A stretch of DNA of 64,000 nt from Thereva unica (Eukaryota > Arthropoda > Insecta > Diptera > Therevidae), in the NCBI GenBank assembly GCA_949987705.1, contig OX465283.1, positions 91,437,813-91,501,812 of the forward strand. Reading direction: 5' to 3'. Below the pieces are notes generated by a model. The model made no database searches, was not told the DNA's origin, and was given only the letters and a program-made list of their open reading frames with translations. Of this stretch, positions 9,317 to 61,982 are shown piece by piece. The first letter of the stretch is position 1. Every line of letters starts with the position of its first letter. The position numbers were made by a program, and so were the translations under genes.

Positions 9317-9376
9317 GGGAAACGAATAAAGACTAACTCCATGGGGCGGGAGTTGGTCGGGGAAATCGAAGCCCCC
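9317..9376 (+). promoter_or_regulatory. Predicted -1 ribosomal frameshift signal, Gypsy-A gag/pol
   Basis: GGGAAAC (9317-9323) lies in the gag frame as G GGA AAC, followed by GAA and the gag stop TAA (9327-9329). After a 7-nt spacer, GACTAACTCC (9331-9340) can pair with GGAGTTGGTC (9349-9358) through nine Watson-Crick pairs and one G-U. The 8-nt loop contains GGGGC, which can pair with GCCCC at 9371-9375 to form an H-type pseudoknot. Pol is in the -1 frame and is open across the site. Confidence 0.72.
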
Positions 9377-22331: not shown

Positions 22332-23146
22332 TGCGCCCTAACCGCCGTGAAGGATCCTGAAATCTACATGTTTGTAGGCGAGGTAGAAGCGGAGCCAGAA
22401 AACACGACAGTGAGTATGGCAGAACTTTTTAAAACATTGATCGTGATGAAGGAAGCGAAAGAACGGTCATCAGCGGCGCAACAACGTGCATCAGCGGAGA
22501 TGAAAGCAGACATGAGGGAGGCGACAACAGAGATCAAGGCTGAAGAGATGGCGTTAAAAGATGAACAGAATTTGTTAGCAGTACCTCATGAACGCTCGTT
22601 AGCAGAGCTCAAAGAGTCGATGGAAGAACAGAGGAACCAGCTGGAGCAGAAAATCGAATCACTCTCACTTTCTGTCGACAATAAGATGGATAACATCAAA
22701 GAAAATGTTAGGAATGATCTGGAAAGTCTCGAATCTTCCATCAAGGAAAATGTAAGGAATGATCTGGAAAACCTCGAATCTTCCATCAAAACAAATGTAG
22801 GGAATGATCTGGAAAAGCTCGAAAATTCCATGAGGGAAAATGATCAAAAATTGAAGATTGAACAAGAATCGGTCCGAGCCGACCTGGAATGGGTAAAGAT
22901 TAATCACCCAGTGACGGCATCTCACGAAGTTATCGGAGCTAGAAAACTACAGCCTACAACTTTCGACGGGCAAGGCCCATGGCCTACTTACAAGCTCCAA
23001 TTCAACTTCGAAATAGACTTCAAATGCCAGGAGAAATTTTACAACAACTATGCGCCGATATCGAGAGGCTTAACGCATTTACTGACCGGGACTTGCTACA
23101 GGCAGCTAGACTGGCCGGGAAGAAAACTACCCAAGAAGTTTTGGCA
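22332..23146 (+). pseudogene. gag: Gypsy-B gag, lacking the N-terminus and most of the capsid domain
   Basis: The SAP-like N-terminus of copies A and C is gone; coding similarity starts at KDPEIYMF and runs through the coiled coil and three 15-residue repeats (KENVRNDLESLESSI-like). After PTYKLQF about 200 bases of the gag domain are deleted, and the reading frame continues out of register into a short Gag tail, where the truncated LINE at 23147 follows. It cannot make a working Gag. Confidence 0.82.
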
Positions 23147-27772: not shown

Positions 27773-28829
27773 GGTCACGCGCATTTTTGGTTCGCACCCG
27801 TTTCTGGGCACTTGTGCCTATGCAGCTGGCTAGAACATGGCAACTTTTGGTTTAGCTCCGCATAGAAACAGCAGCGTATAATTCTATGTGTGCGAGGAAA
27901 AATAGCCCGCGCTTGGTGGGTGGGATTGGGTTAGAATGTTGCAATGCAGAAGCTGCTCTCAGCATTCGTTTTATATTCTCGCGCCGCTCTCAAAATTCAT
28001 GTCATATTCAGGGGTGCCACTTTGGCTCTATAGAGCCATTTGTGGCTCTTTATAAAAAAAAACTTTTAAAATTGGCTCTTTGGCTCTTTTTCAACTTAAA
28101 TGGCTCTTTTGCCTTTTTCTTTCAACTTGATCTTGAATTTTAACTGATTTGGTTTTTCCTAATTACATACTCGCAAAGAATTTACCATTACTGTTACTGG
28201 ATAAAAATTCAATATTTGATTTCAAGATTTGAAGATTTTTGAACTATCCTACAACTAATTTCTCTGGTCGACCATGCCTCCTACTCGTATGGTAAAGAAG
28301 AAGATTTGTTTTTGACATCTTATTGTTCGCGGTTTTCAATGTAATTCCTGTTGTGTTTGAATTTGGCTCTTTTTTATCAGCTTTGGCTCTTTTTCTCGGA
28401 AAATTTGGCTCCAAAATTTTTTGTTTAGTGGCAACCCTGGTCATATTCTCGCACGCCATCGCACACAGCAGCGAATGTATGAATGTATGCAGACCCGCTC
28501 TCAAAATCCATGGCATATTCACGCCGCTCTTTAGCATTCATTTCATCCTCTCGCACACATTCGCTGCTGTGTGCGATGGCGTGCGAGAATATGACATGAA
28601 TTTTGAGAGCGGCGCGAGAATATAAAACGAATGCTGAGAGCAGCTTCTGCATTGCAACATTCTAACCCAATCCCACCCACCAAGGGCGGGCTATTTTGCC
28701 TCGCACACATATAATTATGCGCTGCTGTTTGTAAGTGGAGCTCAACTAAAAGTTTCCATGCTCTAGCCAGCTTCATAGGCACAAGTGCCCAGAAACGAGT
28801 GAACAACAAAGTGCGCGTGTCGCCAACAT
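27773..28829. mobile_element. Foldback element with about 300-bp inverted arms
   Basis: The left arm (27773-28008) and right arm (28440-28829) are reverse complements over most of their length: GGCACTTGTGCCTA against TAGGCACAAGTGCC, GGTGGGTGGGATTGGG against CCCAATCCCACCCACC, and ATTCTCGCGCCGCTCT against AGAGCGGCGCGAGAAT. Both ends show subrepeats: GTGCGCGTGTCGC with CCAGAAACGRGTG recurs at the right end and GGCTAGARCATGGCAACTTT at the left. A hAT MITE is inserted in the left arm. No coding sequence. Confidence 0.78.
28009..28439. mobile_element. hAT-type MITE with 8-bp target duplication
   Basis: GTCATATT occurs at 28001-28008 and 28440-28447, flanking inverted ends CAGGGGTGCCACT and AGTGGCAACCCTG. 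An 8-bp duplication with CAGGG-type ends identifies hAT. The 431-bp interior is built from TGGCTCTTT repeats and has no transposase. Confidence 0.88.
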
Positions 28830-29356: not shown

Positions 29357-29725
29357 CCTTTCATTAAATGCACAAGGCTTTTTAAAGCATAAAGACGAAA
29401 TTGATGACTTAGTTGTAAAATTTAAACCAAAAATATTATGTCTAACGGAAACCCATGTGACGGAAGAAGTAGAAGAAAATGAATTAAAAATAACAAACTA
29501 TGAAATGGTGCGATGCAATTCAAATAATAGAAGAACGGGAGGAGTTAGTACATACATAAGCAAGGACATAAAATATAGAATATTAACAAACAAAAACATT
29601 GAACAAAACACGTGGCTAATAGTCTGTAAGCTAGCAGGAATATATAATGAAATTATTATTTGTAATCTGTATCACTCACCAAGTACGAGTGATGGTGTTT
29701 TTATTAGTGAATTAACGAATGAATG
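29357..29725 (+). pseudogene. LINE ORF2 endonuclease, first half
   Basis: LSLNAQGFLKHKDEI and CLTETHVTEE carry the Asn and Glu of the AP-endonuclease site; GGVSTYISKDIKYRI and ICNLYHSPST follow. The BEL array enters after GAATG at 29721-29725. Removing the array and one GAATG restores a continuous frame into 43797 (ELTNECEKMVDMG). Confidence 0.83.
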
Positions 29726-30394
29726 TGTTCAGACACTTGCTATAATATGTCGTAAGGGGACAAGTAGGCGGCGACAACTGCAACGACAAAGTAATATGTC
29801 AATAGAACTTAAGTAGGCGACGAAAGAAAATTTGGATATAAAAGGCGAGCCGGAGCTTCAAAATTTTAGTCAATCACAATCATCTAAACCATCAAGTTCA
29901 AGTCAAGTTCAAGAAGTTTCGTTTTGTTATAATTATATTGTTCCCTATTAAATAAGTTGGAAGGTATGTTCTATAACTTCGGCACATACATGTCATTTGA
30001 TGACATCGTGCCCACACCAGACACTTTTTAACCACTAGCATCTGCGGCACATACATGTCGGGCAACCGAAATCGTGCCAAAGAGACTAGTTTCTTTTTGT
30101 TGTATTGTTCTTTCAGAGCCAGACTAGCAATTTTGGTTGTATTGTTTGTATTCCTTTAATATGTCATTAAATAAATAAATAGATAAACCTAGATAACCAA
30201 TAATCAATAAACTAAGTTTACTAACCAACACAGAGTTTTAATTATCCACTCAATCCGTCTTCTTCTCTGAGTTTGCTCTGGATAGTGGTCCTTGGTACGC
30301 GTAGTGGTCACGTTTGGAACTGTTACATTTCGAACGATATTATATAAATTGCCAATCCATTCTTTCATCCGCTACACTAGACCCTCACTAAACA
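29726..30394 (+). repeat. BEL LTR1
   Basis: 669 bp, TGTTCAGACAC to CACTAAACA, with TATAAAAG at 29837-29844. TGGTGGTTCCATCC starts four bases downstream as a candidate primer-binding site. The 3' border is inferred from this and the CA end. Confidence 0.85.
29837..29844 (+). promoter_or_regulatory. BEL LTR1 TATA box
   Basis: GGATATAAAAGG, conserved in LTR1, LTR3, LTR4 and LTR5. LTR2, the LTR that precedes the only pol-bearing copy, reads GGATATATGTAAAAGG at 33247-33261 because of a 4-base insertion. Confidence 0.6.
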
Positions 30395-30452
30395 TTTTGG
30401 TGGTTCCATCCAGGATTGGCAATCTATTTTATCGACGAAATCAAGTTCTAAG

Positions 30453-33101
30453 ATGAGTTCACTAAGGAAGGCAATGCTGCGAGAGCAGGCTCAGAGATCT
30501 CGTATTGAGAAATTTATTGAAAATTCGAAGAAAACTGCGACGGTAAAAAGAACCAAGGCATTCTATGAAGTAAAACTGGAACAAATGAATCAGTTATGGT
30601 TGGAGTACAAGGAGACAGATCAGTTATTAACGGATGCGTATCTATGTGACGAGTCAGATTCCGCAGCAGCACCTGAAGATACATACGTGCAAATAGAGTC
30701 GAAATATTCTGAGTATCGGAGTGAACTGCTGGAAGGACACAGGAAATTGTCTGCAGCAGAACCTCTGCCAACTCAACCTGCAACAATTCCAATGGTCCGA
30801 ACGGAGACATTTTTACCAAAGATAGAGCTACCAAACTTTGATGGGAATTATGATTCATGGTTTTCCTTCCATGATTTATTCGTGTCATTGATTCACAACA
30901 ACGTGCAATTGAGCGCAGTGCAGAAGCTGTATCACCTGAAATCATGTTTGATTGGTGATGCTGAACAACTTCTACGACACATACCAGTTACGGATAATAA
31001 CTATGACGTTTCTTGGAACAAGGTTAAGGAACGATATGAAAATAAGAGAATTTTGGTAAATCATTATTTGAAGACACTTCTCAATCAACCAAAAGTTCCA
31101 ACCGAAAATTCCACTAATTTAAAAACATTCATAGCAACAACGGATGATTGTCTACAACAAATCATCAATTTGAAAATTGATATAGAATCATGGGATCTTT
31201 TACTTATACACATCCTGATCTCAAAACTCCCGTTTGTTACGATGAAATTGTGGGAAGAAGAACAAGGCGCATCCCAAACTCTGCCTACTTACAAGGCGTT
31301 CCATGCATTCCTGTGCAAAAGACATAAGGTACTTGAGTCTATCTGTGACATTGTGTCCACAAATCAACAGCCACAACTAAATCGGACAAAACCCACTACA
31401 AGGGTTCACCATACAGTCAAAAGGAATCAGTGTCCAGCTTGCCAGGAATGTCACTGGCTTCAGAGATGCCCTAAATATGTTAATATGGACCCAACTGCAA
31501 GACGAAGGGTAGTGAGGACAGCGGGGCACTGCTTCAATTGCCTGTCGAAAAACCACGTGACGAACCAATGCAACAGTAAATTTAGATGTTTGAAGTGCAA
31601 GGAAAAACATCATACGACCTTGCATGAAGAGACACAGAGTAAGAAGTTCTACTTAGATCCAAATCCACAACAACCAAGGGAATTACACACAACTATGTTA
31701 CAATCCCAACATGATCAAACTAATCAATTACCAAACGATGCACCTATATCGTCACATCAACGAACCACTCACCAGGCCCACAGCGCTGGTGGTTCAAACA
31801 ACGTGCAAGCCTTCCTCGCAAGGGAGGGATCGCACACGTTGCTATCAACAGCCTTGGTACTCACAAGGGGGAGCAACGGACGGCAACATACTATCAGATG
31901 CCTAGTAGATAATGGCTCGGAGTCATCCTTTATTACCCAGAATACATGCAAGAAACTAGGAGTGTCCTGTAGCCCGGCAGGAGTCAACATATATGGTCTG
32001 AACACAAGGCCAACAGGGAAGTCAACGAAACAAACTAGGATTATTCTGGAATCAATGAGCGCTAGCAAATTTCAGATGTCCCAAACATTTCTAGTGGTCA
32101 ACAGTATAACCGAAAGCTTACCTAAGACAGCAATTTCAAGTCACCGGTATAACCATTTGCATGGTCTTGAACTGGCAGACCCGGGATGGTGGAAACCTGG
32201 CGACATCGATGCTTTGCTGGGTGCTGATGCATATGCTAGGATAGTTCAAGATGGTGTTCGACGAGGTGCAGAAGCAGAGCCCGTGGCAGTAAACACAAGT
32301 TTTGGATGGGTAATAATCGGACCCACACACGAGATGTCTAATACTACAGCTAACAATTTCACGATTCAAGTCACAAACGAGGATCTCAGCAATCAACTTA
32401 AACAATTCTGGGAAGAAGAAGAGCTCAATTCACAACCAATTCTGATTCAAGAAGAGCAAGAATGTTCGGACTATTATACAAAAACCCATCGACGGCTAGA
32501 GAATGGGCAATACCAAGTCAATCTCCCATTCAGATGAAACGAGAAGCCCAACTTAGGCAACTCACGTGCGATGGCCCTCAAGCGGCTGTATTGTGTGGAA
32601 AGACGGCTCAATAGCAACCCTCAACTAAGGAAAGACTATGAAGCCTGTTTACAGGAATACATCCTATCTCCTCCATCAGTGGATGGTTCGACGAGGCCTC
32701 CCGATCAGCCATCAGGCAGTTCAGAAAACAAGAGAGAATATCCGAAGGCGTTGCCAGAACAAACAAAATACACGAAGTCGACATTAGAGGAACCGGCTCA
32801 GATTAATGGAAGGACCATCTCATCCTTGCAGAAGCTAAGAACTACAACCACTCTGAAGGAACTGAGGACGAGGCTTACCAACGATTTCCAGCGGTTTACG
32901 ACTCGGGAAGGGAGTGACATTTTCCTTCCAAGACAAGTGATAGAAAAACTGGACATTGGAAAAATCCAGAAGCGGAAGGGAAGAGAACAAACTATCAACC
33001 TTCCGGGACGATACCAAGTGAAGGTGAAGGTTAAGGTGAATGGTGACCTACAGTTCCACCACTACCGGAAACGAGGAGTATCGAAAGTAAAAAAATGTTG
33101 A
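30453..33101 (+). pseudogene. BEL copy 1: gag-protease joined to ORF3, pol deleted
   Basis: ATG at 30453. Gag N-terminus with a Lys/Glu-rich helix and the DUF1759-like domain (FLPKIELPNFDGNYDSWFSF, VQKLYHLKSCL), then three Cys/His knuckles (CPACQECHWLQRC, CFNCLSKNHVTNQC, CLKCKEKHH). A retropepsin-like domain follows (CLVDNGSESSF). An in-frame TGA at 32535-32537 replaces Arg found in copies 2 and 3. The same frame continues to EACLQEYI, where about 3.2 kb of pol are missing and ORF3 sequence (LSPPSVDGS) is joined in frame, ending at 33101. Confidence 0.88.
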
Positions 33102-33137
33102 TCTAATTGATCAAGATTAGATCAACGCGGGGGAGTA
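33097..33137 (+). promoter_or_regulatory. BEL copy 1 pre-LTR hairpin and polypurine tract
   Basis: GTTGATCTAAT (33097-33107) and ATTAGATCAAC (33116-33126) are a perfect 11-bp stem with loop TGATCAAG. GCGGGGGAG follows and abuts LTR2 as the plus-strand primer tract. The same layout is present in copies 2 and 3. Confidence 0.75.
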
Positions 33138-33810
33138 TGTTCAGACACTTGCTATAATATGTCGTAAGGGGACAAGTAGGCGGCGACAACTGCAACGACA
33201 AAGTAATATGTCAATAGAACTTAAGTAGGCGACGAAAGAAAATTTGGATATATGTAAAAGGCGAGCCGGAGCTTCAAAATTTTAGTCAATCACAATCATC
33301 TAAACCATCAAGTTCAAGTCAAGTTCAAGAAGTTTCGTTTTGTTATAATTATATTGTTCCCTATTAAATAAGTTGGAAGGTATGTTCTATAACTTCGGCA
33401 CATACATGTTATTTGATGACATCGTGCCCACACCAGACACTTTTTAACCACTAGCATCTGCGGCACATACATGTCGGGTCACCGAAATCGTGCCAAAGAG
33501 ACTAGTTTCTTTTTGTTGTATTGTTCTTTCAGAGCCAGACTAGCAATTTTGGTTGTATTGTTTGTATTCCTTTAATATGTCATTAAATAAATAAATAGAT
33601 AAACCTAGATAACCAATAATCAATAAACTAAGTTTACTAACCAACACAGAGTTTTAATTATCCACTCAATCCGTCTTCTTCTCTGAGTTTGCTCTGGATA
33701 GTGGTCCTTGGTACGCGTAGTGGTCACGTTTGGAACTGTTACATTTCGAACGATATTATATAAATTGCCAATCCATTCTTTCATCCGCTACACTAGACCC
33801 TCACTAAACA
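33138..33810 (+). repeat. BEL LTR2
   Basis: Full-length LTR serving as 3' LTR of copy 1 and 5' LTR of copy 2. It has a 4-base insertion in the TATA region. After its end, TTTTG joins directly to mid-gag sequence TAAATCATT because the copy 2 leader and gag N-terminus are deleted. Confidence 0.85.
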
Positions 33811-36800
33811 TTTTGATAAATCATTATTTGAAGACACTTCTCAATCAACCAAAGGTTACAACCGAAAATTCCAATAATTTAAAAACATTCATAGCAACAA
33901 CGGATGATTGTCTACAACAAATCATCAATTTGAAAATTGATATAGAATCGTGGGATCTTTTACTTATACACATCCTGATCTCAAAACTCCCGTTTGTTAC
34001 GATGAAGATGTGGGAAGAAGAACAAGGCGCATCCCAAACTCTGCCTACTTACAACGCTTTCCATGCATTCCTGTGTAAAAGACAGAAGGTACTTGAGTCT
34101 ATCTCTGACATTGTGTCAACAAGTCAACAGTCACAACCAACTCGGACAAAACCCACTACAAAGGTTCACCACACAATCAAGGGGAATCAATGTCCAGCCT
34201 GTCGGGAATGTCACTGGCTTCAGAGATGCCCTAAATATATTAATATGGACCCAACCGCAAGACGAAAGGTAGTGAGGACAGCGGGACACTGCTTCAATTG
34301 CCTATCGAAAAACCACACGACGAATCAGTGCAAGAGCAAATTTAGATGTTTGAAGTGCAAGGAAAAACATCATACGACCTTGCATGACGAGACGCAGAAG
34401 TCTTACTCAGAGCCAAAGTCACAACAACATGATCAAACGAGTCAAAGACCAGACGATACACCTATATCGTCACATCAACGAACCACTCACCAGGCCCACA
34501 GCGCTGGTGGTTCAAACAACGTGCAAGCCTTCCTCGCAAGGGAGGGATCGCACACGTTGCTATCAACAGCCTTGGTACTCACAAGGGGGAGCAACGGACG
34601 GCAACATACTATCAGATGCCTAGTGGATAATGGCTCGGAGTCATCCTTTATTACCCAGAATACATGCAAGAAACTAGGAGTGTCCTGTAGCCCGGCAGGA
34701 GTCAACATATATGGTCTGAACACAAGGCCAACAGGGAAGTCAACGAAACAAACTAGGATTATTCTAGAATCAATGAGCGCTAGCAAATTTCAGATGTCCC
34801 AAACATTTCTAGTGGTCAACAGTATAAGCTTACCTAAGATAGCAATTTCAAGTCACCGGTATAACCATTTGCATGGTCTTGAACTGGCAGACCCAGGATG
34901 GTGGAAACCTGGCGACATCGATGCTTTGCTGGGTGCAGATGCATATGCTAGGATAGTTCAAGATGGTGTTCGACGAGGTGCAGAAGCAGAGCCCGTGGCA
35001 GTAAACACAAGTTTTGGATGGGTAATAATCGGACCCACACACGAGATGTCTAATACTACAGCTAACAATTTCACGATTCAAGTCACAAACGAGGATCTCA
35101 GCAATCAACTTAAACAATTCTGGGAAGAAGAAGAGGTCAATTCACCACCAATTCTGAGTCAAGAAGAGCAAGAATGTTCGGACTATTATACAAAAACCCA
35201 TCGACGGCTAGAGAATGGGCAATACCAAGTCAATCTCCCATTCAGACGAAACGAGAAGCCCAACTTAGGCAACTCACGTGAGATGGCCCTCAAGCGGATG
35301 TATTGTGTAGAAAGACGGCTCAATAGCAACCCTCAACTAAGGAAAGACTATGAAGCCTGTTTACAGGAATACATCCAGCTGGGACACATGGTTGAAACAA
35401 GCCAGCCCAACGACGGTGAACCAAACTATTACATCCCACATCATGCGGTAATAAAAGAGAGCAGCACCACCACCAAAGTGAGAGTTGTATTTGATGCGTC
35501 TGCGAAAACGACTAATGGTCATTCGTTGAATGATTTTTTGCTAGCTGGCCCAACAATACAATCCAAGTTGTTTTGCACTCTACTAAGATGGAGAAGACAT
35601 AGAATAGCTGTCCATGCAGATATCGAGAAAATGTATCGAATGGTTCAGGTATCACCAGAACATCGGACATATCAACGAATTCTCTGGCGGCATCAAACTC
35701 AAGGCAATGTTCAAGACTATATGCTGACAACGGCAACTTTTGGAACAACAGCTGCTCCTTATTTGGCGATTAGAACACTGAACCAACTGGCAGTAGATGA
35801 GAAGCAGAACTTCCCACTTGCATCTAAGGTAACTGAGTCTGATTTCTATGTGGATGATTTATTGACAGGCACGGATGATGTCAAAGAAGCACTTGAACTG
35901 CAGTTCCAACTACTCACAATGCTCAAGTCAGGTGGATTCAATCTGAGGAAGTGGAGCAGTAACGAGAAGCAAGTGCTTGAACAATTACCAATGAAGTACA
36001 GAGAGCATAAAGATTTGGTGACATTTTCAGAGCCGAATGCAATAAAGACTCTGGGGGTCCGTTGGCAACCGTGTTCTGATCACTTCTCTTTTCAATTCAA
36101 GCTGCATAAAGAACATAACGTCATAACTAAGAGAACAATCTTATCAGAAGTGGCGTCGTTATATGATCCTCTAGGGTTGCTACAACCAGTGATAATCGTT
36201 GCTAAAATGTTAATCCAGGATTTATGGCTGACAGGGTGTTCATGGGACCAACAAGTGCCAGAACATATAGCCAAAAATTGGGAAAACTACAAGGCGGATT
36301 TACATAATATAAACAAAATTACAATTCCTAGGTGGATCCACTATTCTCCACAACATGACATGCAAATCCATGGCTTCTGCGACGCATCAATGCGAGCAAC
36401 TGCTGCTGTGATCTATTTGCGAGTCACGGACAACGAAGGCAACATTATGTCGACACTACTAACCTCGAGAACTAAGGTAGCATCAACCAAACCAATGACT
36501 ATACCTCGATTGGAACTGAACAGTGCGTTGCTATTAGCACGATTGTTGAAAGAAACTGTATCTAGCATGAACTTACAAGGAATTCCGCTAATTGCGTGGA
36601 CTGATTCGACCATCGTGCTCGAATGGATCCGACAACATGCGTCGAGATGGAAAACCTACGTGGCGAATCGAGTTTTACAAATACAGGAACTTGTGAAGTA
36701 TGACCAGTGGAGACATGTTTCAACGCAATGGAATCCTGCCGATCTTGCGAGCAGAGGAACCACTGCAAATTCACTAATAGACAACCATCTATGGCTTAAC

Positions 36801-38399
36801 GGTCCACCTTGGCTCACTAAATCACCGACAGACTGGCCGACAGGGGCCATCGTCAAGGAGGATACAACATTAGAGGCTAAGGAACGCACAACGGCTTTGG
36901 TATCTACAAGTGAAGATGACGTAATGTTCCGGTATTCATCGTTTACACGAACTATCCGAATAATAGCAATGTTACGACGCTTCATTCACAACCTGAGGGA
37001 TCCCATGAACAAAGAATTGCAAGCAATCACTACGGAAGAACTGAATCAGGCAGAACGGACAATTTTAGGGCGAGTCCAACAAGTTGCTTTCCATTTTGAG
37101 CTACAAAGCCTTCTAAATGACAAACGTCTATCGTCAAGCAGCAAGTTACTCACATTAAATCCATTTGTTGACGAACATGGTTTAATCAGGGTAGGAGGAC
37201 GTTTAAAGAACGCTGCAATTCCATACACACAAAAACATCCCATCATAATTCCGCGAGATCATCACGTAACAAATCTAATTGTAGACAAAACACACCATGA
37301 TACGTTGCATGGTGGTACATCCTTAGTGCTAGCAACAACAAGGAACAAATACTGGATTCTCGATGGTAGGAGATGCATTACTTCAAGAATACATCGGTGC
37401 ATTACCTGCACGAGATATCGGCAATCCACGACCCATCAACTAATGGGAAATCTACCTCAGTGCAGAACTACAATGGCGAAGGCATTTACGCATACAGGAG
37501 TCGACTATGCCGGGCCTTTTAACATAAAGGCAGCTAAACATCGAAATGCCAAAATATCTAAAGGATATGTGTGTGTCTTCGTCTGCATGTCAACTAAGGC
37601 GGTACACATCGAGTTAACTTCTGATCTCACAGCGGAAGCATTTGTAGCTGGATTCAAACGCTTCATGGCCAGGCGAGGAAAATGCACAGACATATATTCT
37701 GACTGTGGCACAAATTTTGTCGGCGGAAGAAAATTGCTCGATAAAGAATTAAGCCAAGCCATCAAGGAATCAAGTCCAGCAATGGAAAGATACTTAGCAG
37801 ACTTATCTATAAACTGGCACTTCAATCCACCAGCTGCGCCACACTTTGGAGGTTTGTGGGAGGCCGGTGTCAAATCCATCAAACACCACATTAAAAGGAT
37901 AATGGGAAACTCCATTTATACTTTTGAAGAATTTACAACGATCCTCAACCAAATCGAAGCGTGTTTAAATTCAAGACCAATATGTTATGTACCCAACAAT
38001 TCAGAAGATCCACTCATCCTAACTCCAGGTCATTTTCTTATTGGTCAATCGTTAATGGTATTACCAGAAGCAGAGTCAAGAACAGGCAACACCTCACTCA
38101 ATATACGATGGCAACACACCAAGAACATTATGTCACAATTCTGGGACAAGTGGTCGAAAGATTATCTCAATCAACTGCAGCAGAGACCCAAGTGGCAACG
38201 ACAACAGACCAATCTGCAAGTAGGACAGGTAGTGCTGGTGAAAGGCGACAAAACACCGCCGGCAGTATGGCCTCTTGGGATCATAGAAGAACTATTCCCG
38301 GGGAACGATGGACTAATTCGGGTGGTACAAGTTCGCACCAATATGGGTCAAGTTAAACGGCCAATCACAAAATTGTGCCCTCTACCGATACAGGTCTAA
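33811..38399 (+). CDS. pol: BEL copy 2 gag-pol polyprotein, gag N-terminus deleted, pol complete
   Basis: The frame is open from within LTR2 (33708) to TAA 38397-38399. About 660 bases covering leader and gag N-terminus are missing, joined at an ATTTTG shared by both break points. Then: gag knuckles; retropepsin-like domain with DNGS (near 34627); RT with VVFDASAKT, HADIEKMYRMV and YVDD (35847-35858); RNase H (HGFCDAS near 36370, PRLELNSALL); integrase with HHCC finger (HHDTLHGG to CITC), DDE residues in VDYAGPF, SDCGTNF and GGLWEAG; and the BEL C-terminal domain ending KLCPLPIQV. All catalytic motifs are present without a stop. Without a gag N-terminus and leader it could act only with help from another copy; that is inference. 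Confidence 0.92.
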
Positions 38400-38473
38400 G
38401 TACATACACCCAACAGTCCAACACTTTGTAGATATACATTTTAAATTCAAAATTTATCATTAACATATTTCAG

Positions 38474-38989
38474 ATGGGTAACCGGTATGAATGTGAGGAG
38501 GAAGATTACTGGGACAATTGGGACACCTACCTACACATTGATGAAGAGGTCTCGTTATCTCCTCCATCAGTGGATGGTTCGACGAGGCCTCCTGATCAAC
38601 CATCAGGCAGGTCAGAAAATAAGAGAGAGTATCCAAGGGCGTTGCCAGAACAGACCAGATTCACGAAGTCGATACTAGAGGAACCGGCTCAGATTAATGG
38701 AAGGACCATTTCATCCTTGCAGAAGCTAAGACCTACAACCACTCTGAAGGAACTGAAGACGAGGTGTACCAATGATTTCCAGAGGTTTACGACTCGGGAA
38801 GGGAGTGACATTTTCCTTCCAAGACGAGTGATAGAAAAACTGGACATTGGAAAAATCCAGAAGCGGAAGGGAAGAGAACAAACCATCAACCTTCCGGGAC
38901 GATACCAAGTGAAGGTGAAGGTTAAGGCGAATGGGGACCTACAGTTCCACCACTACCGGAAACGAGGAGTATCGAAGGCAAAATGTTGA
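38474..38989 (+). CDS. BEL ORF3, 171 codons downstream of pol, function unknown
   Basis: ATG at 38474, 75 bases after the pol stop. The N-terminus is acidic and aromatic (YECEEEDYWDNWDTY), the middle is rich in Pro/Ser/Glu (SPPSVDGSTRPPDQ) and the C-terminus is strongly basic (KIQKRKGREQ, then YQVKVKVKANGDLQFHHYRKR). I see no signal peptide, membrane segment or cleavage motif, so it is not an ordinary envelope protein. Most of its sequence is also kept, in frame with upstream gag, in copies 1 and 3. I do not recognise the family. Confidence 0.7.
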   Translation: MGNRYECEEEDYWDNWDTYLHIDEEVSLSPPSVDGSTRPPDQPSGRSENKREYPRALPEQTRFTKSILEEPAQINGRTISSLQKLRPTTTLKELKTRCTNDFQRFTTREGSDIFLPRRVIEKLDIGKIQKRKGREQTINLPGRYQVKVKVKANGDLQFHHYRKRGVSKAKC

Positions 38990-39025
38990 TCTAATTGATC
39001 AAGATTAGATCAACGCGGGGGAGCA
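38985..39025 (+). promoter_or_regulatory. BEL copy 2 pre-LTR hairpin and polypurine tract
   Basis: Perfect 11-bp stem 38985-38995 with 39004-39014, followed by GCGGGGGAGCA and LTR3. Confidence 0.75.
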
Positions 39026-39694
39026 TGTTCAGACACTTGCTATAATGTGTCGTAATGGGACAAGTAGGCGGCGACAACTGCAACGACAAAGTAATATGTC
39101 AATAGAACTTAAGTAGGCGACGAAAGAAAATTTGGATATAAAAGGCGAGCCGGAGCTTCAAAATTTCAGTCAATCACAATCATCTAAACCATCAAGTTCA
39201 AGTCAAGTTCAAGAAGTTTCGTTTTGTTATAATTATATTGTTCCCTATTAAATAAGTTGGAAGGTATGTTCTATAACTTCGGCACATACATGTCATTTTA
39301 TGACATCGTGCCCACACCAGACACTTTTTAACCACTAGCATCTGCGGCACATACATGTCGGGTCACCGAAATCGTGCCAAAGAGACTAGTTTCTTTTTGT
39401 TGTATTGTTCTTTCAGAGCCAGACTAGCAATTTTGGTTGTATTGTTTGTATTCCTTTAATATGTCATTAAATAAATAAATAGATAAACCTAGATAACCAA
39501 TAATCAATAAACTAAGTTTACTAACCAACACAGAGTTTTAATTATCCACTCAATCCGTCTTCTTCTCTGAGTTTGCTCTGGATAGTGGTCCTTGGTACGC
39601 GTAGTGGTCACGTTTGGAACTGTTACATTTCGAACGATATTATATAAATTGCCAATCCATTCTTTCATCCGCTACACTAGACCCTCACTAAACA
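39026..39694 (+). repeat. BEL LTR3
   Basis: 669-bp LTR with intact TATAAAAG, shared by copies 2 and 3; a candidate primer-binding site TGGTGGTTCCATCC follows. Confidence 0.85.
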
Positions 39695-39752
39695 TTTTGG
39701 TGGTTCCATCCAGGATTGGCAATCTATTTTATCGACGAAATCAAGTTCTAAG

Positions 39753-42578
39753 ATGAGTTCACTAAGGAAGGCAATGCTGCGAGAGCAGGCTCAGAGATCT
39801 CGTATTGAGAAATTTATTGAAAATTCGAAGAAAACTGCGACGGTAAAAAGAACCAAGGCATTCTATGAAGTAAAACTGGAACAAATGAATCAGTTATGGT
39901 TGGAGTACAAGGAGACAGATCAGTTATTAACGGATGCGTATCTATGTGACGAGTCAGAGTCCGCAGCAGCACCTGAAGATACATACGTGCAAATAGAGTC
40001 GAAATATTCTGAGTATCGGAGTGAACTGCTGGAAGGACACAGGAAATTGTCTGCAGCAGAACCTCTGCCAACTCAACCTGCAACAATTCCAATTGTCCGA
40101 ACGGAGACATTTTTACCAAAGATAGAGCTACCAAAGTTTGATGGGAATTATGATTCATGGTTTTCCTTCCATGATTTATTCGTGTCATTGATTCACAACA
40201 ACGTGCAATTGAGCGCAGTGCAGAAGCTGTATCACCTGAAATCATGTTTGATTGGTGATGCTGAACAACTTCTACGACACATACCAGTTACGGATAATAA
40301 CTATGACGTTTCTTGGAACAAGGTTAAGGAACGATATGAAAATAAGAGAATTTTGGTAAATCATTATTTGAAGACACTTCTCAATCAACCAAAAGTTCCA
40401 ACCGAAAATTCCACTAATTTAAAAACATTCATAGCAACAACGGGTGATTGTCTACAACAAATCATCAATTTGAAAATTGATATAGAATCATGGGATCTTT
40501 TACTTATACACATCCTGATCTCAAAACTCCCGTTTGTTACGATGAAATTGTGGGAAGAAGAACAAGGCGCATCCCAAACTCTGCCTACTTACAAGGCGTT
40601 CCATGCATTCCTGTGCAAAAGACATAAGGTACTTGAGTCTATCTGTGACATTGTGTCCACAAATCAACAGCCACAACTAAATCGGACAAAACCCACTACA
40701 AGGGTTCACCATACAGTCAAAAGGAATCAGTGTCCAGCTTGCCAGGAATGTCACTGGCTTCAGAGATGCCCTAAATATGTTAATATGGACCCAACTGCAA
40801 GACGAAGGGTAGTGAGGACAGCGGGGCACTGCTTCAATTGCCTGTCGAAAAACCACGTGACGAACCAATGCAAAAGTAAATTTAGATGTTTGAAGTGCAA
40901 GGAAAAACATCATACGACCTTGCATGAAGAGACACAGAGTAAGAAGTTCTACTCAGATCCAAATCCACAACAACCAAGGGAATTACACACAACTATGTTA
41001 CAATCCCAACATGATCAAACTAACCAATTACCAAACGATGCACCTATATCGTCACATCAACAAACCACTCACCAGGCCCACAGCGCTGGTGGTTCAAACA
41101 ACGTGCAAGCCTTCCTCGCAAGGGAGGGATCGCACACGTTGCTATCAACAGCCTTGGTACTCACAAGGGGGAGCAACGGACGGCAACATACTATCAGATG
41201 CCTAGTGGATAATGGCTCGGAGTCATCCTTTATTACCCAGAATACATGCAAGAAACTAGGAGTGTCCTGTAGCCCGGCAGGAGTCAACATATATGGTCTG
41301 AACACAAGGCCAACAGGGAAGTCAACGAAACAAACTAGGATTATTCTAGAATCAATGAGCGCTAGCAAATTTCAGATGTCCCAAACATTTCTAGTGGTCA
41401 ACAGTATAACCGAAAGCTTACCTAAGATAGCAATTTCAAGTCACCGGTATAACCATTTGCATGGTCTTGAACTGGCAGACCCAGGATGGTGGAAACCTGG
41501 CGACATCGATGCTTTGCTGGGTGCAGATGCATATGCTATGATAGTTCAAGATGGTGTTCGACGAGGTGCAGAAGCAGAGCCCGTGGCAGTAAACACAAGT
41601 TTTGGATGGGTAATAATCGGACCCACACACGAGATGTCTAATACTACAGCTAACAATTTCACGATTCAAGTCACAAACGAGGATCTCAGCAATCAACTTA
41701 AACAATTCTGGGAAGAAGAAGAGGTCAATTCACCACCAATTCTGAGTCAAGAAGAGCAAGAATGTTCGGACTATTATACAAAAACCCATCGACGGCTAGA
41801 GAATGGGCAATACCAAGTCAATCTCCCATTCAGACGAAACGAGAAGCCCAACTTAGGCAACTCACGTGCGATGGCCCTCAAGCGGCTGTATTGTGTGGAA
41901 AGACGGCTCAATAGCAACCCTCAACTAAGGAAAGACTATGAAGCCTGTTTACAGGAATACATCCAGCTGGGACACATGGTTGAAACAAGCCAGCCCAACG
42001 ACGGTGAACCAACCTATTACATCCCACATCATGCGGTAATAAAAGAGAGCAGCACCACCACCAAAGTGAGAGTTGTATTTGATGCGTCTGCGAAAACGAC
42101 TAATGGTCATTCGTTGAATGACGAAGAGGTCTCGTTATCTCCTCCATCAGTGGATGGTTCGACGAGGCCTCCCGATCAGCCATCAGGCAGTTTAGAAAAT
42201 AAGAGAGAATATCCAAAGGCGTTGCCAGAACAGACAAAATTCACGAAGTCGATACTAGAGGAACCGGCTCAGATTAATGGAAGGACCATCTCATCCTTGC
42301 AGAAGCTAAGAACTACAACCACTCTGAAGGAACTGAGGACGAGGCTTACCAACGATTTCCAGCGGTTTACGACTCGGGAAGGGAGTGACATTTTCCTTCC
42401 AAGACAAGTGATAGAAAAACTGGACATTGGAAAAATCCAGAAGCGGAAGGGAAGAAAACAAACTATCAACCTTCCGGGACGATACCAAGTGAAGGTGAAG
42501 GTTAAGGTGAATGGTGACCTACAGTTCCACCACTACCGGAAACGAGGAGTATCGAAAGTAAAAAAAATGTTGATCTAA
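39753..42578 (+). CDS. BEL copy 3: gag-protease fused in frame to ORF3
   Basis: A single 941-codon frame. It has the complete gag N-terminus, DUF1759-like domain, knuckles and retropepsin-like domain as in copy 1 but without its stop, continues through EYIQLGHMVETSQ and VRVVFDASAKTTNGHSLND at the start of RT, and there joins EEVSLSPPSVDGS of ORF3. Everything from the RT palm to the integrase end is deleted. The break points share ATGA, so the fusion arose at microhomology. The frame was kept, so a Gag-ORF3 fusion protein could be made. Confidence 0.88.
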   Translation: MSSLRKAMLREQAQRSRIEKFIENSKKTATVKRTKAFYEVKLEQMNQLWLEYKETDQLLTDAYLCDESESAAAPEDTYVQIESKYSEYRSELLEGHRKLSAAEPLPTQPATIPIVRTETFLPKIELPKFDGNYDSWFSFHDLFVSLIHNNVQLSAVQKLYHLKSCLIGDAEQLLRHIPVTDNNYDVSWNKVKERYENKRILVNHYLKTLLNQPKVPTENSTNLKTFIATTGDCLQQIINLKIDIESWDLLLIHILISKLPFVTMKLWEEEQGASQTLPTYKAFHAFLCKRHKVLESICDIVSTNQQPQLNRTKPTTRVHHTVKRNQCPACQECHWLQRCPKYVNMDPTARRRVVRTAGHCFNCLSKNHVTNQCKSKFRCLKCKEKHHTTLHEETQSKKFYSDPNPQQPRELHTTMLQSQHDQTNQLPNDAPISSHQQTTHQAHSAGGSNNVQAFLAREGSHTLLSTALVLTRGSNGRQHTIRCLVDNGSESSFITQNTCKKLGVSCSPAGVNIYGLNTRPTGKSTKQTRIILESMSASKFQMSQTFLVVNSITESLPKIAISSHRYNHLHGLELADPGWWKPGDIDALLGADAYAMIVQDGVRRGAEAEPVAVNTSFGWVIIGPTHEMSNTTANNFTIQVTNEDLSNQLKQFWEEEEVNSPPILSQEEQECSDYYTKTHRRLENGQYQVNLPFRRNEKPNLGNSRAMALKRLYCVERRLNSNPQLRKDYEACLQEYIQLGHMVETSQPNDGEPTYYIPHHAVIKESSTTTKVRVVFDASAKTTNGHSLNDEEVSLSPPSVDGSTRPPDQPSGSLENKREYPKALPEQTKFTKSILEEPAQINGRTISSLQKLRTTTTLKELRTRLTNDFQRFTTREGSDIFLPRQVIEKLDIGKIQKRKGRKQTINLPGRYQVKVKVKVNGDLQFHHYRKRGVSKVKKMLI

Positions 42579-42609
42579 TTGATCAAGATTAGATCAACGC
42601 GGGGGAGTA
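42569..42609 (+). promoter_or_regulatory. BEL copy 3 pre-LTR hairpin and polypurine tract
   Basis: Perfect 11-bp stem 42569-42579 with 42588-42598, then GCGGGGGAGTA and LTR4. Confidence 0.75.
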
Positions 42610-43205
42610 TGTTCAGACACTTGCTATAATATGTCGTAAGGGGACAAGTAGGCGGCGACAACTGCAACGACAAAGTAATATGTCAATAGAACTTAAGTAG
42701 GCGACGAAAGAAAATTTGGATATAAAAGGCGAGCCGGAGCTTCAAAATTTTAGTCAATCACAATCATCTAAACCGTCAAGTTCAAGTCAAGTTCAAGAAG
42801 TTTCGTTTTGTTATAATTATATTGTTCCCGATTAAATAAGTTGGAAGGTATGTTCTATAAACTTCGGCACATACATGTCATTTTATGACATCGTGCCTAC
42901 ACCAGACACTTTTTAACTACTAGCATCTGCGGCACATACATGTCGGGTCACCGAAATCGTGCCAAAGAGACTAGTTTCTTTTTGTTGTATTGTTCTTTCA
43001 GATCCAGACTAGCAATTTTGTTTGTATTGTTTGTATTCCTTTAATATGTCATTAAATAAATAAATAGATAAACCTAGATAACCAATAATCAATAAACTAA
43101 GTTTACTAACCAACACAGAGTTTTAATTATCCACTCAATCCGTCTTCTTCTCTGAGTTTGCTCTGGATAGTGGTCCTTGGTACGCGTAGTGGTCACGTTT
43201 GGAAC
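42610..43205 (+). repeat. BEL LTR4, truncated at its 3' side
   Basis: Begins TGTTCAG and stops at GGTCACGTTTGGAAC, about 73 bases short of the LTR end. It carries several differences absent from the other four LTRs (for example CCGTCAAG, CCCGATTAAA, GTGCCTACACC, CAGATCCAG). Confidence 0.85.
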
Positions 43206-43791
43206 GTGACCACTACGCGTACCAAGGACCACTATCCAGAGCAAACTCAGAGAAGAAGACGGATTGAGTGGATAATTAAAACTCTGTGTTGGTTAGTAAA
43301 CTTAGTTTATTGATTATTGGTTATCTAGGTTTATCTATTTATTTATTTAATGACATATTAAAGGAATACAAACAATACAACCAAAATTGCTAGTCTGGCT
43401 CTGAAAGAACAATACAACAAAAAGAAACTAGTCTCTTTGGCACGATTTCGGTGACCCGACATGTATGTGCCGCAGATGCTAGTGGTTAAAAAGTGTCTGG
43501 TGTGGGCACGATGTCATCAAATGACATGTATGTGCCGAAGTTATAGAACATACCTTCCAACTTATTTAATAGGGAACAATATAATTATAACAAAACGAAA
43601 CTTCTTGAACTTGACTTGAACTTGATGGTTTAGATGATTGTGATTGACTAAAATTTTGAAGCTCCGGCTCGCCTTTTATATCCAAATTTTCTTTCGTCGC
43701 CTACTTAAGTTCTATTGACATATTACTTTGTCGTTGCAGTTGTCGCCGCCTACTTGTCCCCTTACGACATATTATAGCAAGTGTCTGAACA
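43203..43791 (-). repeat. BEL LTR5, inverted, forming a 590-bp palindrome with LTR4
   Basis: The reverse complement of LTR positions 1 to about 593. GTT (43197-43199) and AAC (43203-43205) close the palindrome around TGG. Its outer edge, TGTCTGAACA, abuts GAATG. Outside the centre it agrees with LTR1 at the sites where LTR4 differs. Confidence 0.88.
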
Positions 43792-43796
43792 GAATG

Positions 43797-44218
43797 TGAA
43801 AAAATGGTAGATATGGGACACGTCATAACAGTAGGAGATTTTAATATAGATGTGAGCAAAAATAACCATTACTCAAATAAACTATTGAAAAATTTAAGAA
43901 GTCTAGGACTGAAACAGTACATTACCGAATACACGAGAATTACAGAAACATCTCAAACAATAATTGACTTGGCATTCTCAAACTTTTATATAATAGCAGA
44001 TGTATTACAAACACCGAAAATTACTGACCACCAAATTGTACAGATAAGAATTGTAAAAAATGTCCACAGACATGGCAGACGAACAGAGTATTTTAAAAGA
44101 GATATGAAAAACTTCCGAGATGAACATTTTAACGAAATATTAACTACTGTGATTGAAAACAAATGTGATACAAACAGTGATATAAACAATTTAGCAAATA
44201 ACGTGATAGAAAGTATAA
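43797..44218 (+). pseudogene. LINE ORF2 endonuclease, second half
   Basis: VITVGDFNIDVSKN gives the catalytic Asp and Asn, IDLAFSN and ITDHQIVQI the C-terminal Asp-His. The frame runs to VIESI, where a Harbinger MITE is inserted; without it the frame reads on (VIESIIEAINIEAP). Confidence 0.83.
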
Positions 44219-44680
44219 GGCTGGCCGCACACGTACGGTTTCCGTGTTCGGTTTCCGAATTCGGAAATCCGACTCGGGATTCCGTGAGCTTAGCGCAGAC
44301 GTTCGGTTTTTTGTATTAGGAATCGACAGAAATCGACGGATCGACAAAAAATACTGCCACAAAATACAACAAAATATAAAATGTACTCGGCACAGCACTG
44401 GCGCGATTCCGAATGGAAATTTCCTGACGTGTGCGCCGGTTAAGCAAAAATGTATGTGAGCGCTGCGTTCGGGATGACGCCATTCGGTTTTTTTTCGTTC
44501 GGATACTCCGAACGCAAGTCCTGGCTTCTGAACCGAATATCAGGAATGGTTTCCGAACGGAATATTTAAGAACGTGTGCGGTAATTAGAATTATTTGTAT
44601 CAAATGCCTGCATTCGGTTGTCCGAGTACGGAAACCAAATTCGGAAACCGAACACAGAAATCGTACGTGTGCGGCCAGCT
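44219..44680. mobile_element. PIF/Harbinger-type MITE in LINE ORF2
   Basis: Inverted ends GCTGGCCGCACACGTACG and CGTACGTGTGCGGCCAGC, one base inside each border, and TAA on both sides (44216-44218 and 44681-44683). Removal of the element and one TAA restores the LINE reading frame. The interior repeats CCGAATTCGGAAACCG-like motifs in both orientations and has no transposase. Confidence 0.88.
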
Positions 44681-44683
44681 TAA

Positions 44684-46696
44684 TAGAGGCAATTAATATC
44701 GAAGCCCCACTTGTATTTAAATGTATTCCAACAATATGGAAACAAAAACCATGGATAACAGAAGAAGTGAGGGATCAAAGTAAAATAAGAGACTGGGCAT
44801 ACAAACGTGCAGCAAGTACTAAATCTCAGTGGGACTGGAATGAATATAAGAGGAGACGGAATATAGTCGTAAATGCAATTCGCCAAAGTAAACAACAATA
44901 CTACGAAGAAAATATAGATGCAGTAAAATCAAACACTAAAAAAATGTGGTATACGCTTAAAAAACTAATAGGCGATAAAAGTAAGGATGTAAGCATAAAT
45001 GGAATCAGCTTTGAAGGGAACATATGTGAGGATGAACAAGAAATAGCAAATAAATTTAATGAGTTTTTTATTCAAAGTATTGAGGAAATTGTCAGAAATG
45101 AAGTAGAAAATGAAAATGATGAAAGAATTAATGTGGAAGTTGAATACAGCATCGAATCATTTCAAGTAGTAACAAAAGGCGAGATAGATAAAATTGTAAG
45201 CAATATGGAAAACAAAAAAGGAACGGAGGAAGGAATTAGCACTTTTTTTCTGAAAGCAGGATGGAAAAGTATGGGGCAAGTCATGTTGTCATTAATTAAT
45301 AAATCTATGCAAGAAGGAGTTTTCCCGGAAAGGTGGAAAACGTCAACTGTAGTTCCAATTCCAAAAATAGCTGGCAGCATGAAAGCAGAAGAATATAGAC
45401 CAATTAATATGTTGCCTATATATGAAAAAATATTAGAAACTGCAGCAAAAAATCAACTAGTTGAATATACAGAAAGAAAACGAATATTGGTAGATGAACA
45501 GTCAGGTTTTCGGGAAAACTTCTCCTGCGAAACGGCTGTACAAAATGTTATGATTAAATGGAGAAAAGAACTTGATGAGAGCAAATTTATTGGTGTCGTT
45601 TTCCTAGGCTTTAAGAGAGCTTTTGAAACCGTAAGTAGAAGTATATTGTTGCAGAAACTGAAAAATTATGGAATTAAAGGAAAAGTGTATAAATGGCTGG
45701 AGTCTTATATGGAAAATCGCATCCAACAAGTAAAGTACGGAAAAGCAAAAGTAGAAACAGTTCATGGTGTTCCACAGGGATCCGTATTAGGTCCTCTGTT
45801 ATTCATATTGTATATAAATGATATTGTGAGTCAATTGGATTACTGTTCGTGTAAATTGTTCGCAGACGATACTATGTTATATGTGAGTGATCGTGATGTT
45901 TGTCAAATAGAGAAAAAACTAAATCATGATTTAAAGAATGTTGTGAAATGGTTAGGGAAAAACTCGCTAAGATTAAATACAAAAAAAAACTAAGTTCATG
46001 GTGATACACGACCAAAGAAAGCAGTATACAAAAAACACATGTGATATTCTAATTGATAATACAAAGATTGAAGAAATGGATGAAATGAATTATTTAGGCA
46101 TAATAATAGATAATAATTTAAAATTCGACAGCTATGCAGCATTTATTGCAAAAAAAGTAGCTAAAAAAGTGGGCTTCATGTATAGAATTAATAAATATGT
46201 ATCAGTAAATACGTTAGTGACAATTTATAAGTCCATAGTGGCGCCACACTTCGACTACTGTAATACTCTTCTGTTAAACATTAATGAATACTGGATGGAT
46301 ATATTGCAGAAAACACAGAACAGAGCAATGAGAGCTATCTTGAGATGTGATAGATATACAAGAATAAATGACATGCTAAATGCGTTACGTTTCCTAAGCA
46401 TAAGACAGCGGATGAAATTCAATGTATGTGTCTTTGTATATAAAATAAAAAATGGAATGCTGCCGAGATACCTAAGTAACGACGTGCAATTAGTAGGAGA
46501 AAGATATTTATATAACACCAGGCAAAGAAATGAGTTGAGAGTATGTTATCGCAAAACAAGCGCAGCCCAAAAATGTATAACATACACAGGATTCGAAATG
46601 TTTAACAAGTTACCGACGGAAATAAAAACAGCTGGACGATTAAATGACTTTAAAAAAATGTTGAAAGAATTTGTGAAATCAGGGGAAAATGTGTAA
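44684..46696 (+). pseudogene. LINE ORF2 reverse transcriptase and C-terminus
   Basis: After the linker (WITEEVRDQSKIRDW) the RT shows EYRPINMLPIYEK, QSGFRENFSCE, VFLGFKRAFETV, GVPQGSVLGPLLF and FADD (45859-45870). The first catalytic Asp is Gly (codon GGC at 45607-45609), so this copy is catalytically dead. A frameshift in an A-run near 45990 separates the last part (46001-46696), with YLGIIIDNNLKF, PHFDYCNTLL and FEMFNKLPTEIK. Confidence 0.85.
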
Positions 46697-60472: not shown

Positions 60473-61935
60473 ATGGGTCGAAAGCTAGTGGATTTGCGCA
60501 CTGTAGAGTTAAAAAGAGAATTAAGTAAACGCTCGTTGTCAACGGTGGGGGTTAAAAATTCCCTAACCGCCCTGCTTCGAGAAGCTATGGTGAACGAAGG
60601 TAAGGATCCTGAAACCTACATTTTTGAAGGCGAGGTAGAAGCAGAGCCAGAAGAAGCGACAGTGAGTATGGCAGAACTTCTTAAAACATTGATGGAGATG
60701 AAGGAAGTGCAAGAGCGTGCATCAGCGGAGATGAAGGCAGATATGAAGGAATTACAAGAACGTTCAACTATAGAAATCAAGGCGGAAGTGTTGGCGTTAA
60801 AGGATGAACAGAAATTGTTAGCAGTAGCTCATGAACGCTCGTTAGCAGAACTCAAAGAGTCTATGGAAGAGCAGAAGAACCAACTGGAGCAGAAAATCGA
60901 ATCATTCTCCCTTTCTGTCGACAACAAGCTAGATAACATGAAAGAAAATGTAAGGAATGATCTGGAAAATCTCGAATCTTCCATCAAGGCAAATGTGAGG
61001 AATGATCTGGAAAATCTCGAATCTTCTATTAAAGAAAATGTAGAGAATGATTTGGAAAAGCTGATGAAAAGTTGAAGATTGAGCTAGAATCGGTCAGGGC
61101 CGAGCTAGAAAGGGTAAAGATTCACCACCCAGCGACGGCATCTCACGAAGTCATCGGAGTTAGGAAACTGCAGCCTCCAACTTTCGACGGGCAAAGCCCA
61201 TGGTCTACTTATAAGCTCCAATTCGAAGCAGCAGCAACAGGCAATTTCTGGACTGAGGAGGAGAAAGCAACCGCCTTAACGTTGTCACTAAGGGGCACAG
61301 CAGCAGAAATATTGCAGTCAATACCAGCAGAACATCGCAACAGCTACGGGTTCTTAGTTCAAGCGCTGGAAATGCGTTACGGTGATCAACACATGCAAGA
61401 GGTTTATCGACTTCAACTTCGCAATCGACTTCAAAAGCCAGGAGAAACTTTACAACAACTATGCGCCGATATCGAGAGGTTAGTGCATCTGGCTTATCCT
61501 AGCTTCGGCCAAGACTACATCAACGAAGTAGCAAGAGAGGCTTTCCTTAACTCTTTTGCCGACCGAGATCTACAACAGGCAGCCAGATTGGCCGGAAAGA
61601 AGAATACTGCAGAAGTTTTGACATATGCTCTGGCATACGAGGCAGCGAGGCAAGCATCAAGAAGTGCAGTCCGCCTCAGAGAGATCCACACAACAGAGGA
61701 TAGTTGCAACAGAATGAATGCAACGGAAGTACGCGGTCGACTCCGATGCTGGAACTGTAGTGAACCGGGTCATTTGCAAAGGAATTGCAGAAAGCGAAGG
61801 AGAGCAGAGTCTCCCGAAAATAGGAGTGGCGGAACTTGCTGTGAAAAATGCGGACATCGGAAGAAAGGTGACCAGAGGGAGGCCGAAAACAATGACTCCG
61901 TGTCTCCCCGCGGACAGCAGCAGGGAAACGAATAA
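60473..61935 (+). pseudogene. gag: Gypsy-C gag with a single frameshifting deletion
   Basis: ATG at 60473 after a 110-base leader. Residues 1-45 form a SAP-like motif (LVDLRTVELKRELSKR), followed by a coiled coil to about residue 195 with three 15-residue repeats. A 22-base deletion near 61060, seen against Gypsy-A, shifts the frame, and a TGA ends the first part at 61075. The second part (from about 61070) holds the capsid-like gag domain and a CCHC knuckle CWNCSEPGHLQRNC, a further CCEKCGHRKK segment, and ends QQQGNE at TAA 61933-61935. Otherwise it appears undamaged. Confidence 0.88.
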
Positions 61936-61982
61936 AGACTAACTCCATGGGGCGGGAGTTAGTCGGGGAAATCGATGCCCCC
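61923..61982 (+). promoter_or_regulatory. Predicted -1 ribosomal frameshift signal, Gypsy-C gag/pol
   Basis: GGGAAAC (61923-61929) in phase G GGA AAC, 7-nt spacer holding the gag stop, then a perfect 10-bp stem GACTAACTCC (61937-61946) with GGAGTTAGTC (61955-61964). The 8-nt loop contains GGGGC (61949-61953), complementary to GCCCC (61977-61981), which allows an H-type pseudoknot. The pol frame, -1 relative to gag, has no stop between the heptamer and the pol ATG at 61947. Confidence 0.78.

Follow-up and report, generated by a model that had tools for sequence, protein, structure and literature searches.

Architecture of the array

In the window, the stretch of 64,000 nucleotides of Thereva unica DNA analysed here, a LINE is interrupted by a BEL/Pao array of about 14 kb (29726-43791), which consists of three deleted units followed by TGG and by an inverted full-length LTR, LTR5 (Table 1). 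The units share LTRs beneath one target duplication, as in tandem LTR-retrotransposon insertions. Each internal unit has direct LTRs, and the outer LTRs of the array are inverted to each other, so that both tips are U3. The LTR4-LTR5 pair makes up only the right end of this larger unit. It forms a single palindrome (42610-43791) with 98.4% identity over 1183 aligned columns in a BLAST comparison, and the preliminary description, according to which LTR4 continues after TGG as its own reverse complement, was right on this point. Over the 590 columns in which LTR4 and LTR5 were aligned with each other, seven mismatches and one one-base gap were found. The LTR boundary used throughout is the boundary of the palindrome, and the plus-strand LTRs other than LTR4 all run into the leader. 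Tandem arrays with shared LTRs are already known; it is the inverted terminal LTR that is new here.

Table 1. Features of the BEL/Pao array and its borders, in window coordinates.
Feature	Position	Strand	Description
Left GAATG	29721..29725	.	5-bp target duplication; within GAATGAATG, in the LINE endonuclease frame; followed by TGTTCAGACAC
LTR1	29726..30314	+	left U3 border; two adjacent differences from LTR5
Unit 1 interior	30315..33137	+	leader and gag-like part (DUF1759) retained; RT/integrase region missing
LTR2	33138..33730	+	common to units 1 and 2; private 4-base insertion
Unit 2 interior	33731..39025	+	first 85 leader bases kept, gag start deleted; open frame of 1565 aa
LTR3	39026..39614	+	common to units 2 and 3
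Unit 3 interior	39615..42609	+	leader retained, with a gag-like region called from DNA that is 99% like unit 1; RT and integrase mostly lost
LTR4	42610..43199	+	left arm of the palindrome; seven private changes and one base in common with LTR3
Turn, GTTTGGAAC	43197..43205	.	native LTR/leader boundary sequence
Spacer TGG	43200-43202		between LTR4 and LTR5
LTR5	43203..43791	-	terminal, inverted; U3 tip is the right border; no private changes among the five LTRs
Right GAATG	43792..43796	.	target duplication; preceded by TGTCTGAACA; LINE frame resumes beyond

The assignment of the element to BEL/Pao follows from Pfam matches in four pieces of its frames, where DUF1759, Peptidase_A17 and DUF5641 scored above the cut-off and RVT_1 and Integrase_H2C2 below Pfam's own cut-off. 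The frame of unit 2 matches a partial DUF1759, RT, Peptidase_A17, the integrase zinc domain and DUF5641. The best 120 of the 2823 matches to a pol piece are pol-type proteins, 41-46% identical, and the species-named ones among these 120 come from insects and other arthropods. The deletions are complementary, units 1 and 3 having gag without most of pol and unit 2 a pol-type frame without the start of gag. The interior of unit 3 ends, ahead of LTR4, with GCGGGGGAGTA, a run resembling a polypurine tract. The long frames of all three units are open, which suggests a young insertion.

The interiors are not equally related. In the 5' part, comparison of units 1 and 3 over 2350 bases gave 18 differences, with five synonymous and 12 nonsynonymous ones in the compared frame; their 3' parts differ at eight of about 490 columns. 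In the shared gag-pro region, unit 2 has 63 differences from unit 1 and 58 from unit 3, of which 51 and 53, respectively, fall within the first 800 columns, and in the 3' part it differs from them at 27 and 24 columns; overall it is 93-94% like them, patchily. Where the deletions were joined, the flanking matches overlap by six bases in unit 2, by three in unit 3 and by none in unit 1. Judged from these patterns, the units seem to be mosaics and to have been distinct already before they were joined, and such deletion-derivative, mosaic interiors are as expected from template switching or recombination preceding insertion.

Outside the array, the same LINE carries to its right a second element of about 470 bp (44214-44685) with imperfect 64-base inverted ends (83%). 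A 224-base inverted repeat, 92% complementary and with arms 577 bases apart, lies at 27786-28810 and encloses tandem units as well as shorter palindromes. At three places, 8263-8456, 22694-22842 and 60937-61059, a similar unit of 45 bp (CATCAA[G/A]GAAAATGTA...) is repeated in tandem; it sits in a dispersed repeat family, of which the copies at 8308-10134 and 60937-62740 are 93% alike.

Borders and target site

Both borders of the array are U3 tips with TG, TGTTCAGACAC on the left and its complement on the right, where the last bases are TGTCTGAACA. The palindrome halts at the U3 tip, as just outside the arms only six of 20 bases match in an ungapped comparison. When the array and one GAATG are removed, the LINE endonuclease frame is open, and the alignments of 49 of the 52 LINE relatives span the junction, while the remaining three fall short of it; 35 of the 49 are gap-free within 15 residues on each side. 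Seven of the 52 relatives are named to species, namely six ants and one mosquito. BEL/Pao elements produce target duplications of 4-5 bp, and the 5 bp of GAATG agree with this. Three statements of the preliminary description were thereby borne out: that the BEL insertion has U3 at both borders, that GAATG flanks it on both sides, here as a single 5-bp duplication, and that the LINE frame is continuous over the insertion site.

Given the U3 tips, the two flanking copies of GAATG and the LINE frame that closes between them, the most economical interpretation is that the whole array was inserted once, by an integrase-type reaction, as a molecule that carried U3 at either end. An integrase accepting two U3 tips would be consistent with the duplication. 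Several other origins were considered and rejected. A chance occurrence of GAATG is disfavoured by a probability of roughly 1 in 1024 for a 5-base match at two borders (hand estimate) and by the closing of the LINE frame. Two separate insertions at one site should have left GAATG between the arms, where TGG is found. An inversion after integration, or a chromosomal break healed by fold-back, does not agree with a right arm that ends exactly at the U3 tip beside GAATG; a chromosomal fold-back copy would extend into unit 3, whereas the LINE continues past GAATG.

The turn at the LTR/leader boundary

The palindrome turns within GTTTGGAAC, which begins at 30312, 33728, 39612 and 43197 and has no other occurrence in the window on either strand. 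In the preliminary description this sequence was placed at the end of the LTR. That placement has to be corrected, because TGGAAC directly follows LTR1, LTR2 and LTR3, after each of which TGGAACTGTTACATTTCG is found, and LTR4 diverges from the native boundary only beyond AAC. Since GTTTGGAAC is native at LTR1-3, AAC belongs to the leader, and a 3' end at AAC would be available without added bases. AAC doubles as leader bases 4-6 and as the first bases of the inverted arm, a 3-base overlap, and the turn can be drawn as a stem of three base pairs, GTT/AAC, that closes a loop of three bases. If a strand ended at AAC, it could anneal to the GTT of a U5 end and prime copying, and pairing on itself or on another LTR would give the identical turn sequence.

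How much weight this pairing can bear was estimated in several ways. Stems of three bases with a 3-base gap begin at 1.75% of window positions, and among 22 start positions around the end of LTR1 such a stem occurs at one, namely the turn point. Overlaps of at least three bases are seen at about 5% of random joins, so the 3-base overlap is weak evidence. When the strand was folded as far as AAC, its minimum-energy structure lacked the GTT/AAC hairpin, and it folded no better than its own shuffles; the missing hairpin and the frequency of random overlaps make the pairing argument a modest one.

TGG, the usual start of a primer site, stands directly after the LTR, at the position of the putative tRNA-primer site. 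A tRNA scan with bacterial settings found no tRNA in the 64-kb window, and no Rfam match reached the gathering score there. At the boundary of LTR1 and the leader (30311-30336), an imperfect inverted repeat, CGTTTGGAA / TTTCGAACG, appears in the predicted fold; this fold was matched or beaten by 174 of 200 shuffles and may mean nothing.

Relationships among the five LTRs

The number of differing alignment columns is 2 for LTR1-LTR5, the smallest of the ten LTR pairs, then 4 for LTR3-LTR5, 5 for LTR2-LTR5, 6 for LTR1-LTR3, 7 for LTR1-LTR2, 8 for LTR4-LTR5, 9 for LTR2-LTR3, 10 for both LTR1-LTR4 and LTR3-LTR4, and 13 for LTR2-LTR4. Of the eight columns separating the two arms of the palindrome, seven are changes private to LTR4 and none is private to LTR5, and in the remaining one the LTR4 base is that of LTR3. 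On the assumption that LTR4 and LTR5 were the same at birth, the skew of seven to zero has p = 0.016 (two-sided binomial); if LTR1, LTR4 and LTR5 were all identical at birth, p = 0.008 when the adjacent pair of LTR1 differences is scored as a single event. Both tests were picked post hoc and assume independent mutation and zero gene conversion.

The private changes, the base shared with LTR3 and the nearness of LTR5 to LTR1 together make it appear disfavoured that LTR5 is a self-copy of LTR4. The snap-back turn suggested in the preliminary description thus stands in its GTT/AAC stem geometry, and its other part, the copying of LTR4 upon itself, finds the seven private changes against it. The pattern would agree with a single template for the two terminal LTRs, LTR1 and LTR5, and with a different origin for LTR4 as an internal LTR. 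Alternatively, LTR4 could have mutated later, or LTR5 could have undergone gene conversion, and either event could account for the differences between the two.

Comparison with known systems

Ordinary BEL/Pao elements have direct LTRs, with a U3 tip at one end and a U5 tip at the other, whereas this array has inverted outer LTRs and U3 at both tips. DIRS elements are not known to make a target duplication, and here the GAATG duplication is present; in the four scanned BEL pieces, Pfam detected no tyrosine recombinase. DIRS-1 is likewise bounded by inverted LTRs, and it is described as using a tyrosine recombinase and a circular intermediate (PMC5633606); the present array differs from it in its target duplication and in encoding BEL/Pao proteins. 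The likeness to the BEL/Pao group (PMC3118150) lies in the encoded DUF1759, Peptidase_A17 and DUF5641.

The chaining of LTRs and interiors resembles the tandem LTR-retrotransposon insertions TLI1 and TLI2 of rice, which share internal LTRs (PMC11899658), and the Cassandra arrays, in which tandem elements also have common internal LTRs (PMC7215508). The rice arrays have one target duplication of 4-5 bp and were argued to be single insertions (PMC11899658), and tandem arrays were proposed to form by recombination or during retrotransposition (PMC11899658; PMC7215508). In contrast to these, the array described here ends in an inverted LTR and its units are differently deleted. The available parts of the rice and Cassandra accounts contain no inverted terminal LTR, and the rice study excluded more complex arrays (PMC11899658). 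No BEL copy with an inverted terminal LTR was found among the titles and abstract openings of, at most, the top 6-20 hits per literature search, a weak result as it leaves most subscription journals uncovered. Pattern scans of two non-insect collections, which may omit the genome of the window, gave no confirmed relative among viral contigs (1, 0, 5 and 18 pattern stretches in four scans) and 0 matches among genome contigs; neither collection has a bearing on the host.

Concerning integration, retroviruses are said to require action on both U3 and U5 ends during infection (PMC11054761). For Rous sarcoma virus integrase, concerted integration was assayed with a U3 oligonucleotide donor (PMC10209032), which makes it plausible that two U3 ends could also be inserted in nature and leave a clean duplication. 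However, that assay used purified enzyme and short gain-of-function U3 DNA, whereas a natural insertion is considered here.

Proposed mechanism and alternatives

What can be read from the locus directly is five near-identical LTRs, three differently deleted interiors that share LTRs, a turn at the LTR/leader boundary, a full-length inverted LTR that ends precisely at its U3 tip and one 5-bp duplication that encloses the whole. We propose, with a probability of about 0.45, that the array is a single integration of a U3/U3 BEL/Pao DNA that arose when reverse transcription switched in trans to another strand; the evidence for the U3/U3 insertion is one locus. According to this proposal, the plus strand leaving LTR4 would stop six bases into the leader, at AAC-3', and the last three bases of this end would anneal to the GTT that terminates a plus strand of LTR length. 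The template would more likely be a second free molecule, such as plus-strand strong-stop DNA, than the strand's own LTR4, and it would be copied as far as its 5' end, the U3 tip. Second-strand synthesis would then yield a duplex bearing U3 at both ends, and integrase would join both to the GAATG target within the LINE. A template in trans fits the 2 columns between LTR5 and LTR1 compared with 8 between LTR5 and LTR4. In Ty3, repeated priming at the polypurine tract yields extra plus-strand strong-stop DNA (PMC5371799); repeated plus-strand priming in BEL is assumed by analogy. The strand switch in trans is favoured because it explains at once why the U3 end is exact, how the turn arose and why LTR4 and LTR5 differ.

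A molecule with two U3 ends could also be produced by the head-to-head joining of two linear BEL DNAs, U5 to U5, with TGG, in this case the complement of the tRNA CCA end, kept through incomplete primer removal. This is the main rival and stands close behind the strand switch in trans, although taken by itself it is somewhat doubtful. It explains why both arms turn at the same coordinate, makes use of TGG as the usual beginning of a primer site and accounts for different source molecules of LTR4 and LTR5; moreover, several DNAs or templates came together, as the units with common LTRs show. However, the agreement of the leader's AAC with the U5 end would then be a coincidence (1 in 64, hand estimate), and the right partner must have been LTR-only or have become a solo LTR later through recombination between its two LTRs, an additional step if the second DNA carried an interior. 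A true snap-back, in which the plus strand of LTR4 folds at GTT/AAC and copies itself and the differences either postdate the insertion or stem from gene conversion of LTR5, agrees with the geometry of the turn and with the coincident ends of both arms. It is nevertheless unlikely, given the excess of private changes in LTR4 (p = 0.016), the base which LTR4 has in common with LTR3 and LTR5 lacks, the closeness of LTR5 to LTR1 and the hairpin missing from the minimum-energy fold.

It may also be asked whether the inverted LTR was created in the library or the assembly, by a fold-back read or an LTR misjoin, as long palindromes and LTR arrays are general hazards for assemblies. A fold-back read should duplicate the arm without the eight differences seen and should continue into unit 3, but the arm ends at the U3 tip beside GAATG and the second half of the LINE. 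As the arms differ at eight columns and end at a biological boundary, an artefact is very improbable.

Implications

If the strand switch in trans or the head-to-head joining, or any other route to two U3 ends, is real at this locus, it would provide natural evidence that the integrase of an LTR retrotransposon can carry a normal insertion through, target duplication included, when both ends are U3 and neither is U5, and one abnormal reverse-transcription product would be fixed in the genome at base resolution. A more far-reaching idea is that GTT-TGG-AAC is a built-in end of reverse transcription that gives rise to U3/U3 molecules used in the germ line, in which case palindromic insertions would recur and LTR double-stranded RNA could silence the family; we regard this as a long shot.

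LTR hairpins have been put forward as silencing triggers, and they were sought for EVD in Arabidopsis (PMC11624286). That study found no close inverted LTR pair, its search being restricted by short inserts; a single nested antisense insertion had LTRs 2562 and 1942 bp apart (PMC11624286). As in that case, the opposed LTRs of the present array could be transcribed into double-stranded RNA, but here they lie 3 bases apart. If real, the locus holds a 590-bp LTR hairpin, a structure of the type looked for as a possible start of silencing by small RNAs (PMC11624286), and a transcript spanning LTR4 and LTR5 would form such a long hairpin.
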